Positions 4,995 through 8,761 of a stretch of DNA of 64,000 bases are shown here, in pieces (within the stretch, counting starts at the first letter, position 1; each line of letters opens with the position of its first letter). The position numbers were made by a program, and so were the translations under genes. Below the pieces are notes generated by a model, which made no database searches, was not told the DNA's origin, and was given only the letters and a program-made list of their open reading frames with translations. The stretch comes from Colwellia sp. RSH04 (lineage in GTDB: Bacteria; Pseudomonadota; Gammaproteobacteria; Enterobacterales; Alteromonadaceae): contig NZ_QXIO01000001.1 of assembly GCF_003545765.1 (NCBI RefSeq), positions 496,001 to 560,000 of the forward strand, read 5' to 3'.

Positions 4995-5906
4995 ATGGAA
5001 TTCAATTCGCCTGAGCGACCATTAACGAGCAACACTGTTGCTGGTTATCGTGGTCGCTTTGCTCCCTCTCCCTCTGGTTTACTTCACTTTGGTTCACTCA
5101 TTGCCGCCCTAGCAAGCTTTCTTGATGCAAAAGCACATCAAGGAAAATGGCTCGTTCGCATAGAAGATATTGATCCACCAAGAGAGTTAACTGGCGCTAG
5201 CACTAACATTTTAAAAACTTTAGATGCTTACGGGCTTCACTGGGACGAAGAAGTTCGCTATCAAAGTCAACAGTCTGAACGCTATCAGGCTCTACTGTCT
5301 GCGTTAAAAAAACAACAGCTTAGCTATTATTGCCAATGCACTAGAGCGCAAATCAAGCAGGTCGGCGGGATATACCAAGGTCATTGCAAACCTCTATCAC
5401 TTCCAGCTCAAGACAGCGCAATTCGCTTGATAAATCATTTTGCCATTCATACCTTTGATGATATTTTTCAAGGGAGCGTGACTTGCGATATAAACCTAGC
5501 TCAAGAAGATTTTATTATTCACCGAAAAGATGGCTTATTTGCTTACCAATTAGCGGTGGTTGCTGATGATATTGAACAAGGTATTACCCATGTAATTCGT
5601 GGCTGTGATTTACTTGAACCAACAGCAAGACAACTAACACTATTTAAAACGCTTCAGCATAATGCACCTCAATTTGGCCATGTCCCCTTAGCGGTAACAA
5701 AACAAGGCTATAAACTGAGTAAGCAAAATAAAGCGCCCGCGATTGATATAAATAAACCACAAGCCTCGTTAATTGCTGCTCTGAAGTTTTTGGGGCAAAA
5801 ACCTGAAAACCAATTAGTTCATGCGAGTGTTAACGAAATTATCTACTGGGCAATTACCCACTGGCAAAGAAATTACGTGCCGAAAATGGCACAAATAGTC
5901 ATTTAA
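4995..5906 (+). CDS. gluQ: Glutamyl-Q tRNA(Asp) synthetase
   Basis: The 303-residue protein is a GluRS-like catalytic core without an anticodon-binding domain, which is the mark of GluQ. It has APSPSGLLHFGSLIAAL (HIGH-type motif), RIEDIDPPRE, a Cys-rich zinc insert (YYCQCTRAQI, later GHC) and KLSKQN (KMSKS-type loop). It glutamylates queuosine at position 34 of tRNA(Asp). It lies 18 bases after dksA, so it is probably co-transcribed with it. Confidence 0.95.
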   Translation: MEFNSPERPLTSNTVAGYRGRFAPSPSGLLHFGSLIAALASFLDAKAHQGKWLVRIEDIDPPRELTGASTNILKTLDAYGLHWDEEVRYQSQQSERYQALLSALKKQQLSYYCQCTRAQIKQVGGIYQGHCKPLSLPAQDSAIRLINHFAIHTFDDIFQGSVTCDINLAQEDFIIHRKDGLFAYQLAVVADDIEQGITHVIRGCDLLEPTARQLTLFKTLQHNAPQFGHVPLAVTKQGYKLSKQNKAPAIDINKPQASLIAALKFLGQKPENQLVHASVNEIIYWAITHWQRNYVPKMAQIVI

Positions 5907-5959: not shown

Positions 5960-6625
5960 ATGTCTAAAACACTTGTGATCACAGGAGCAAACCGCGGTAT
6001 CGGCTTTGCTATGGCAAAACTGGCTCATAGCCAAGGACACAAAGTCTATGCTTTATGTCGCCACTCTTCTGCTCAACTCAATGCGTTAGGCGTACACGTT
6101 ATCGAAAATATTGATGTTGCCACCAAAGACGGAATAAATAATGCTACAGCCGCCTTGAATAATGTCTCTATCGATCTATTGATAAATAATGCTGGCATAT
6201 TGCGTAATGAGAGCTTACAAGATTTGAATACAGATACTATTAAAGAACAGTTTGAAGTAAATGCCCTTGCTCCTTTATGTCTAACCCATGCCTTATTAAA
6301 CAACTTATCATCAGGAAGCAAGGTTGCCTTAATTACATCAAGAATGGGCTCTGTCGCTGATAACACTTCGGGTAGTCGCTATGGCTATAGAATGTCGAAG
6401 GCGGCATTAAATATCGCCGGTATGTCATTAGCACAAGATTTAAAAAGCCAAGGTATTTGTGTAGGCATTTATCACCCAGGTTATGTGCAAACAGATATGG
6501 TTAACCATGGGGGAGATATTAGTAGCGATGAAGCTGCGACACGCCTACTAGGTTTAATGGATAAATTAACACTAGCCGAAACGGGTGTATTTAAACATTC
6601 TAACGGTGAAACTTTACCTTGGTAA
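5960..6625 (+). CDS. Short-chain dehydrogenase/reductase
   Basis: The 221-residue protein has the classical SDR features: TGANRGIG nucleotide-binding loop (residues 8-15), NNAG (76-79) and a YxxxK active site in the segment YGYRMSKAA. The family includes C-factor/CsgA-type reductases, but the substrate is not predictable. A good AAGGAAAG Shine-Dalgarno site precedes the ATG. The gene sits between gluQ and pcnB, where E. coli has no gene, so it looks like a lineage-specific insertion into the old dksA-gluQ-pcnB-folK string. Confidence 0.85.
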   Translation: MSKTLVITGANRGIGFAMAKLAHSQGHKVYALCRHSSAQLNALGVHVIENIDVATKDGINNATAALNNVSIDLLINNAGILRNESLQDLNTDTIKEQFEVNALAPLCLTHALLNNLSSGSKVALITSRMGSVADNTSGSRYGYRMSKAALNIAGMSLAQDLKSQGICVGIYHPGYVQTDMVNHGGDISSDEAATRLLGLMDKLTLAETGVFKHSNGETLPW

Positions 6626-6646
6626 GGCGCCTTCCCCTAATTTGTC

Positions 6647-6691
6647 GCTAAAACCTTGAACGGTCAGGCCACTGCAACACAAGGTTTTAGC
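6647..6691. repeat. 12-bp inverted repeat between SDR gene and pcnB
   Basis: GCTAAAACCTTG (6647-6658) is repeated inverted as CAAGGTTTTAGC (6680-6691) around a 21-base spacer, then CTAAAAAA follows. It can form a strong hairpin in RNA. It has no clean U-tract, so a terminator role is only possible. It lies inside the 183-base gap before pcnB. Confidence 0.6.
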
Positions 6692-6808
6692 TAAAAAACT
6701 TACACCGTTTGCTGCGCTCATAACAAACTGTCGTTTTTTTATGCTGTTTTGCCTCGCTATAGTTCTCTTTTGCGGCGCACTGTTATATCATTGCTCGATT
6801 ATTTTTAA

Positions 6809-8257
6809 GTGTTTTTTAAAAGGTCATCCACTATCAAAAGCGTTATCAATTTATGTAAAAAGGTTTTAACGGGCAGAGGCAAAAAATCACAAACCTCAAA
6901 ACATGCAAAAACACTTGAGCAACCTATTATATTATCTCGTGATGAGCACCCTGTCTCACGTCAATTCATTAGCCCTAACGCACTAAAAGTATTATATCGC
7001 TTAAATAAAGGTGGTTATGATGCTTACCTTGTTGGTGGCGGTGTACGAGATATTTTACTTGGCCTAAAACCAAAAGATTTTGATATAGCCACCAATGCAA
7101 CGCCAGAGCAAATTAAAGCACTATTTCGTAATTGTCGTTTAATTGGTCGACGCTTTCGTTTAGCACATATTGTTTTTGGCAGAGAGATTATTGAAGTCGC
7201 TACTTTTAGAGGCCATCACGACAGCGCAACTGAAAAAGAAAAAAGCTGCAAGAAAACCTCTAAACAAAGTGAACATGGCATGCTACTTAGAGATAATATT
7301 TATGGCAGCATTGAAGAAGATGCCGAACGTCGTGATTTCACGATTAATGCGCTTTATTACTCCAGCAAAGATTTTAAAGTTTATGACTTTGCTAACGGCG
7401 TGCAAGACATTAAAAATAAGCAAATTCGCTTAATCGGCGATCCTGAAACACGTTACCGTGAAGATCCTGTGCGCATGCTAAGAGCCATTCGCTTTGCCAC
7501 AAAGCTTGATATGGCTATTAGTGAAGAAACGCGCGCGCCCATTAAAGCACTTGCTCCTTTAATGGCAAATATACCGCCTGCCAGAATGTTTGAAGAATTC
7601 TTAAAAATGTTTATTTCAGGCAAAGCGATTGAGAATTATCAGGCATTGCGTGAGTACGATTTATTCAACTTTTTCTTCCCCGGTGTTGAACAAGCATTTA
7701 AAGATGATGAAAACAATTATCCTTACATGCCAGCTTTCATTAACCTTGCCTTAAGTAATACCGATAAACGCATTAATAATGAACAACGTGTCACGCCAGC
7801 ATTTTTATTTGCAGCGATGCTTTGGTATCCACTGCAACAGCAGATTAAGCAAATAAAATTACATAACTCATTAACTCCTCAAGACGCTTTTTTTGCTGGA
7901 TTAAATGAAGTTATGCCTGAACAACAAAGAGCAATTGCTATTCCTAAGCGTTTCCAAGCGGTTATTAAAGATATTTGGATACTGCAAGATAAACTCTCTA
8001 GAAGAGAAGGTAAGCGCGCTTTTAAAACATTTGAACACCCTAAATTTAGAGCCGGTTACGACTTCTTATTACTCAGAGCAGAAATTGAATCAGAGGATGA
8101 AAAGCTTGCTGAACTAGCTAAATGGTGGACCGATTTTCAGCAAGTTTCATCAGAAGCTAGGTTGCAAATGATAAAATCAGTCAAAGCACCACAAGGTGGT
8201 AAACGTCGCACGCCAAGAAAACGCAGAAAACCAGCAGTACAAACTCACGACGGCTAA
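6809..8257 (+). CDS. pcnB: Poly(A) polymerase I
   Basis: PcnB adds 3' poly(A) tails that mark RNA for decay. The 482-residue reading has YLVGGGVRDILLG and KDFDIATNA (nucleotidyltransferase site with the DxD acidic pair), RRDFTINAL, the RNA-binding segments RYREDPVRMLRAIRFA and RVTPAFLFAAMLWYP, and a basic C-tail KRRTPRKRRK, all as in E. coli PcnB. The coordinates use the only standard candidate, GTG 6809, which directly follows an in-frame stop. The true start is more likely ATC 6833, nine bases after AAAAGG (see the site entry and finding). folK follows after nine bases. Confidence 0.93.
   Translation: MFFKRSSTIKSVINLCKKVLTGRGKKSQTSKHAKTLEQPIILSRDEHPVSRQFISPNALKVLYRLNKGGYDAYLVGGGVRDILLGLKPKDFDIATNATPEQIKALFRNCRLIGRRFRLAHIVFGREIIEVATFRGHHDSATEKEKSCKKTSKQSEHGMLLRDNIYGSIEEDAERRDFTINALYYSSKDFKVYDFANGVQDIKNKQIRLIGDPETRYREDPVRMLRAIRFATKLDMAISEETRAPIKALAPLMANIPPARMFEEFLKMFISGKAIENYQALREYDLFNFFFPGVEQAFKDDENNYPYMPAFINLALSNTDKRINNEQRVTPAFLFAAMLWYPLQQQIKQIKLHNSLTPQDAFFAGLNEVMPEQQRAIAIPKRFQAVIKDIWILQDKLSRREGKRAFKTFEHPKFRAGYDFLLLRAEIESEDEKLAELAKWWTDFQQVSSEARLQMIKSVKAPQGGKRRTPRKRRKPAVQTHDG
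6818..6835 (+). promoter_or_regulatory. Shine-Dalgarno site and likely AUC start of pcnB
   Basis: AAAAGG (6818-6823) is the only good Shine-Dalgarno sequence near the pcnB 5' end. It lies inside the GTG-started reading, three codons in, where it could not serve GTG 6809. Nine bases after it is ATC (6833-6835), in frame. Protein similarity to E. coli PcnB begins within one residue of this codon. Confidence 0.6.
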
Positions 8258-8266
8258 AAGCAATTT

Positions 8267-8761
8267 ATGACGACTGCATATATAGGTTTGGGCAGCAATT
8301 TATCTAACCCTAAAGATCAGGTTAGACAAGCCGTTGCTCATATCGGCACAATAAAGCAAAGCCACATAGTGGCTGTATCTTCTCTTTACTTGAGCAAACC
8401 AATGGGCCCTCAAGACCAAGATGATTATATCAATGCGGTGTTAGCTTTAGAAACAACCCTATCTGCGATTGAATTACTCGACCAATTACAAGCAATAGAA
8501 AATTCAGCAGGAAGAGTAAGAAAAGATAACCGCTGGGGTGCGCGTATTTTAGATCTAGATATTATTTTATTCGGCGATGATATTATTGAAAACTCACGAC
8601 TAACGGTGCCTCATTACGGTATGACTGAGCGTGAATTTGTCCTTTACCCCCTTATTGAAATTGCACCAGAGTTAGTTTTACCCTCAGGACAATCTTTAAA
8701 ATCATTGCTTGATAACGTCAATATCAATGAAATGATAAAACAAGAAGCAATCTGTTTTTAA
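8267..8761 (+). CDS. folK: 6-hydroxymethyl-7,8-dihydropterin pyrophosphokinase
   Basis: FolK transfers pyrophosphate from ATP to hydroxymethyl-dihydropterin in folate synthesis. At 164 residues it has normal length. It shows GLGSNLSNP at the N-terminus, the signature RWGARILDLDIILFGD with the metal-binding DLD pair, and TVPHYGMTEREFVLYPL. It starts nine bases after the pcnB stop and is followed by panB after 146 bases, the conserved pcnB-folK-panB order. Confidence 0.95.
   Translation: MTTAYIGLGSNLSNPKDQVRQAVAHIGTIKQSHIVAVSSLYLSKPMGPQDQDDYINAVLALETTLSAIELLDQLQAIENSAGRVRKDNRWGARILDLDIILFGDDIIENSRLTVPHYGMTEREFVLYPLIEIAPELVLPSGQSLKSLLDNVNINEMIKQEAICF

Follow-up and report, generated by a model that had tools for sequence, protein, structure and literature searches.

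The window, the whole stretch of 64,000 nucleotides of Colwellia DNA analyzed here, carries a pcnB gene in a neighborhood similar to that of E. coli. The gene order in the window is dksA, gluQ, an extra open reading frame, pcnB and folK, where the neighbors of pcnB have been named from their position and sequence. The upstream gene that is presumably gluQ (4995..5906, plus strand) and the next gene downstream, presumably folK (8267..8761, plus strand), are placed as they are in E. coli. The extra open reading frame at 5960-6625, between gluQ and pcnB, is, from its sequence features, presumably short-chain-dehydrogenase-like. In E. coli gluQ and pcnB are adjacent with no open reading frame between them, unlike in the window.

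The pcnB open reading frame occupies 6809-8257 and is 482 aa long if read from GTG. Its product matched the NCBIfam model TIGR01942 for pcnB with 537.1 bits (cut-off 305.65) and the Pfam model PF01743 with 141 bits (cut-off 23). The score with the equivalog NF008634 was 623.8, below that model's own cut-off of 702. The TIGR01942 score, together with an E. coli-like gene order that is interrupted only by the one inserted open reading frame, identifies the gene as pcnB, encoding poly(A) polymerase I. The genome contains a second match to the PolyA_pol family (L002). Among the named matches listed, the nearest relative by PcnB sequence is Litorilituus lipolyticus (L106), which is 94% identical and belongs to the family Colwelliaceae, order Alteromonadales in the NCBI taxonomy.

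The features around the 5' end of the gene all lie on the plus strand and, on re-reading of the sequence, were as an earlier note on this DNA had described them. An in-frame TAA stop codon at 6806-6808 closes the frame upstream and is followed immediately by GTG 6809-6811, the sole standard start codon upstream in frame, which has no Shine-Dalgarno (SD) sequence at 4-9 nt. An SD-like AAAAGG is found at 6818-6823. It is separated by nine bases (6824-6832) from ATC 6833-6835, the codon proposed as the pcnB start; the aligned spacing is 5 in the AAGG register and 8 in the AGGT register. Counted from ATC, the pcnB coding sequence (6833..8257) has 474 codons. After GTG 6809 the next in-frame ATG, GTG or TTG is ATG 7280, which is codon 150 from ATC, and the catalytic motif LVGGGVRD is found before it, at codon 66. 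Thus, a downstream standard start cannot serve, since the first one falls past the catalytic motif. A promoter and terminator scan of 6560-6900 revealed neither a promoter-like site on the plus strand nor anything resembling a terminator, and so says nothing about the length of the leader.

Conservation of the isoleucine codon at 6833

We compared the 5' regions of pcnB from Colwellia-type relatives. This set was drawn at first with a motif requiring isoleucine at the start; when it was redone with no residue requirement, the same 65 distinct regions were obtained from 100 loci. Duplicates were dropped by identical context, over 120 bases in this set and over 150 bases in the order-level set described below. 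The motif was absent from 20 named loci, which are of Thalassotalea/Thalassomonas types (L083-L085, L087, L088) or from Photobacterium, Aeromonas and Aliidiomarina (L091-L105).

The codon homologous to ATC 6833 was ATC in 58 of the 65 regions and ATT in the other seven, and the counts were the same with any residue allowed at this place. The third base of this codon was also unusually stable. When changes were counted on a tree of the 63 distinct coding sequences that were left after those shorter than 1200 bases or containing N had been excluded, the start place (ATC in 58, ATT in 5) had four third-base changes, the fewest of 17 invariant isoleucine codons. The other 16 had 7-21 changes, and ATT was the commonest codon in 14 of them. 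Upstream of the isoleucine codon, the G at 6823 (-10) was present in all 65 regions and the G at 6822 in 48, the others having A. Information content climbed at -14 to -10, while -9 to -4 were mostly variable with the exception of -8 (C in 47 regions). Relatives retain both the isoleucine codon and the upstream GG, suggesting that they are more than chance. AAAAGG is a short SD, lies at the usual spacing ahead of a near-cognate codon, and keeps its place in relatives.

We also observed synonymous constraint in codons 2 and 3 of pcnB (6836-6841), with AAA in 65 of 65 regions and C at the third base of codon 3 in 62 of 65. The constraint thus extends beyond the start codon and points to the initiation region rather than to one base. 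A reach of this kind into the coding sequence also fits a reading in which the conserved ATCAAA is a regulatory element at the nucleotide level, such as a site for a small RNA or a protein, and the conservation of isoleucine is a by-product. We give this reading very little credence, as it leaves the gene startless in species that have no standard codon, and the RNA fold of 6785-6880 is ordinary (z 0.07).

The conventional alternative is that translation starts at GTG 6809, which would add eight residues to the protein and make ATC 6833 an ordinary isoleucine codon. In its favor, GTG is one of the standard start codons and heads the open frame. However, besides lacking an SD and abutting the in-frame stop, this codon is missing from the sister species. 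In L. lipolyticus L106 and L004, which have identical context, TAG TGT stands in place of GTG 6809, and no ATG, GTG or TTG occurs in L. lipolyticus from the in-frame stop to the conserved anchor motif. More broadly, 29 of the 65 Colwellia-type regions have no upstream in-frame ATG, GTG or TTG. Among the remaining 36, an SD score better than -6 at an upstream standard codon was found only in L023, at a GTG 43 codons upstream, and in L029, at an ATG 45 codons upstream, both well away from the conserved protein. The earlier note had said that its proposal would be refuted by relatives in which a good SD precedes a standard start upstream, and a search of the 65 regions for such cases turned up just these two. 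In addition, the bases from -36 to -15 vary among relatives, whereas the isoleucine codon is constant. On this sequence evidence it is highly improbable that GTG 6809 works as the start, and we reject it as the likely start codon. Judged from sequence comparison, pcnB very likely starts at ATC 6833, as had been proposed from the window alone, and this is supported by conservation, by the fact that the sister species lacks the GTG, by the third-base constraint, and by the placement of the SD in relatives.

Position of the proposed start relative to E. coli pcnB

The residues IKSVINLCKKV, beginning at ATC 6833, align without gaps with residues 2-12 of E. coli PcnB, and the NF008634 match begins with profile position 4 at residue 11 when the protein is read from GTG. 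Because both place ATC at codon 2, the start of the E. coli gene corresponds to the codon before the Colwellia isoleucine. In the window this gap-free homologue of the E. coli AUU start codon is ACT 6830-6832, with ATC at the next codon. The earlier note had placed the beginning of the match to E. coli PcnB one residue from ATC; the profile match and the sequences indicate that ATC is the counterpart of E. coli codon 2 and that AUU is the counterpart of ACT.

In the 65 Colwellia-type regions, the codon before the isoleucine is ATT in 30, ACT in 21, ATC in 7, and some other codon in 7. From these sequences, the start in the Colwellia group appears to have moved one codon downstream, from AUU to AUC, and the SD pairing appears to have changed halves, GAGGT giving way to AAGG, with the aligned spacing staying at 5. 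We infer that the shift passed through tandem isoleucine codons such as many relatives still carry. In the 37 regions where the codon before the isoleucine is itself ATT or ATC, unlike the ACT of the window, the start could be either isoleucine codon.

Such variation can also be read as evidence that starts in Colwellia are species-specific, with GTG two codons upstream in one sub-lineage and ATT or ATC elsewhere, so that the rare start has been partly lost. Consistent with this, ATT or ATC stands immediately ahead of the isoleucine in the 37 regions above, and GTG occupies codon -2 in 19 of the 65, where it could be usable as a start. However, this GTG follows AGG by three bases and no SD is scored for it at 4-9 nt, and every listed sequence that bears it has ATC as the isoleucine codon after it. 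The window, with TCC ACT at the codons concerned, is unaffected. We consider a patchwork of species-specific starts unlikely.

Probable isoleucine starts across the order

We used a codon-blind test: in each distinct order-level sequence we picked, whatever its identity, the in-frame codon preceded by the best SD at a spacing of 4-6. The order set of 198 loci yielded 146 distinct sequences with the anchor motif and 143 with an SD strong enough to score; L107-L109, from outside the order, and L002 were left out. Isoleucine codons were picked 81.2 times versus 11.1 expected, and standard start codons 3.0 times versus 6.1 expected. In the two other frames isoleucine was picked 2.5 times (7.9 expected) and 2.0 times (5.4 expected). 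The test picked isoleucine in 87 sequences, and a standard codon was within three codons in 17 of these. In a variant with a spacing of 4-9, applied to 146 distinct sequences including L107-L109 from outside the order, with L002 among the loci read and with ties broken by position, the first picks were ATT in 52, ATC in 28, ATA in 2, ATG in 1, GTG in 1 and TTG in 2.

Control genes were scored in the same way. For dksA, ATG was picked in 58.5 of 85, as expected of that gene. No standard-start signal was obtained with folK or gluQ, for which isoleucine was picked 11.0 times versus 12.6 expected and 7.8 times versus 4.4 expected, respectively. An isoleucine excess was found in panB (33.0 versus 12.8) and was traced mainly to an internal coding motif with SD-like codons in 29 of 34 sequences. 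Because of this mixed specificity in the controls, the codon-blind test alone is no proof. Unlike the internal motif of panB, the pcnB site borders the conserved protein instead of lying within it. With the window's own sequence the test picks an internal TCA codon (-7.69) and not ATC, and the AGGT is spaced equally well for ACT and for ATC. Thus, support for ATC comes from the relatives.

Sequences with no standard alternative were also found at the level of the order. In 15 of the 146 distinct order sequences the stretch from the nearest in-frame stop to the conserved anchor motif contains no ATG, GTG or TTG. In L005, L079, L081, L082, L083, L087, L150 and L152 an in-frame stop is found 1-3 codons before the isoleucine, with no standard codon between.

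A search of the order as defined by GTDB covered 394 genomes, of which 383 had a match; 90 representative loci were chosen and 89 could be scored (L172 has no anchor). This order also holds a genome (G118) with an infC that is 98% identical to that of E. coli. A rule was applied in which ATG, GTG and TTG were favored over isoleucine codons by a bonus. It picked isoleucine in 63 of the 89 loci and a standard codon in 25, and made no pick in one. Some of the 25 standard picks look like errors of the rule, such as L143, which also has GAGGT before ATT, and are still counted as standard. The isoleucine picks comprised 27 of 30 loci in the window's family and 36 of 59 elsewhere, and at least one was made in 19 of 25 families. 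The rule picks correctly in E. coli K-12, where ATT is the annotated start.

The usual arrangement in the order is GAGGTG-N3-ATT, which E. coli K-12 also has (GAGGTGTACTATTTTTACC). Within the window's family there is another form, with AGGAG or GGAG followed by two isoleucine codons, and the Colwellia form has AAGG followed by X-ATC. In some lineages, among them L128, L159, L162, L200 and L201, the codon is ATG. On this evidence, a predicted near-cognate isoleucine start of pcnB is widespread in the GTDB order that includes E. coli. The earlier note had proposed that the rare start is conserved in a distant order with a different codon. The change of codon, AUC for AUU, stands; the order is not a distant one, since the GTDB order in which the trait is widespread also holds the Enterobacteriaceae. 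For this reason the trait is better explained as inherited, with a local shift, than as a parallel that arose in a distant order.

Outside the order we searched 143 genomes, and 40 regions were fetched and scored with mixed picks. In two genomes from outside the order (L203, L212) pcnB likewise appears to have an ATT or ATC start preceded by a strong SD (TAAGGA, GGAGGT).

Proposed initiation at AUC and comparison with known systems

Abundant poly(A) polymerase is harmful, as work in E. coli has indicated. In the mechanism that we propose, the short SD AAAAGG would guide initiation at AUC 6833, which the initiator tRNA would read with a third-base mismatch. Initiation at this near-cognate codon would be inefficient and would keep poly(A) polymerase I scarce, as happens with AUU in E. 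coli. We consider it highly probable that translation of pcnB begins at AUC 6833. By analogy, we infer that the yield of PcnB from the AUC start is low and that IF3, the gene for which is present in the window's genome, discriminates against this start. Papers citing Binns and Masters (2002) state that the AUU of E. coli pcnB limits translation. Repression of non-standard starts by IF3, including that of the GTC of Streptomyces sigR, is described in PMC5472188.

Control by a rare start is known from E. coli. In the literature searched, part of which was available as excerpts, we found neither a paper dealing with the start codon of pcnB in bacteria other than E. coli nor a description of the Colwellia codon, its position, its SD register, or the breadth of its conservation; Binns and Masters (2002) may itself mention relatives. 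An inefficient start that has been kept across many families while its codon, position and SD changed would suggest selection for the weakness itself. A further consequence is that gene finders limited to the standard codons ATG, GTG and TTG are prone to put the start of pcnB in the wrong place across much of the order.

The gene for IF3, infC, is a useful comparison. It is described as having an AUU start through which IF3 controls its own synthesis. In 25 of 31 infC loci sampled across the order, the stretch examined had ATT, ATA or ATC but lacked ATG. Like infC, pcnB has a near-cognate isoleucine start that is kept in the order. In the window's genus, an infC match was found in 36 of 39 genomes, and 30 loci were read, one of which was cut by the contig end. 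We observed GGAGGAAC-ATG-GCT-AT(T/C)-AAA in 29 of the 29 readable loci (L244, L271, L272, L274-L290, L292-L300). The AUG in these loci is two codons upstream of the usual AUU or AUC and right behind GGAGGAAC. The two genes differ in this respect, since infC of the genus carries an upstream AUG that may serve as its start, whereas pcnB keeps its near-cognate codon.

A broader scenario, which we regard as a tentative but serious possibility, is that the weak pcnB start is an old trait of the order that was selected as such. The Colwellia start would then have slid by one codon through a tandem ATT-ATC, with a shift in SD register, and settled on AUC. It would have persisted there even though infC of the genus gained an AUG and may have left IF3 feedback, and the rare start would hold PcnB down without relying on IF3 autocontrol. 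The accompanying change in infC makes the genus a natural experiment on whether control of pcnB by its rare start requires IF3 feedback.

Two systems bear comparison with pcnB of the window. Streptomyces sigR, as described in PMC5472188, resembles it in having a non-standard start that limits a protein and that had been misannotated to an upstream standard codon, but the gene, the codon and the phylum all differ. The closer parallel is E. coli pcnB. The E. coli gene has AUU behind GAGGTG, whereas the window has AUC, one codon further downstream, with AAAAGG as its SD. The two are nevertheless alike in that they are orthologous genes in a similar neighborhood, each with a near-cognate isoleucine start behind an SD, predicted in the case of the window, and with no convincing standard start.
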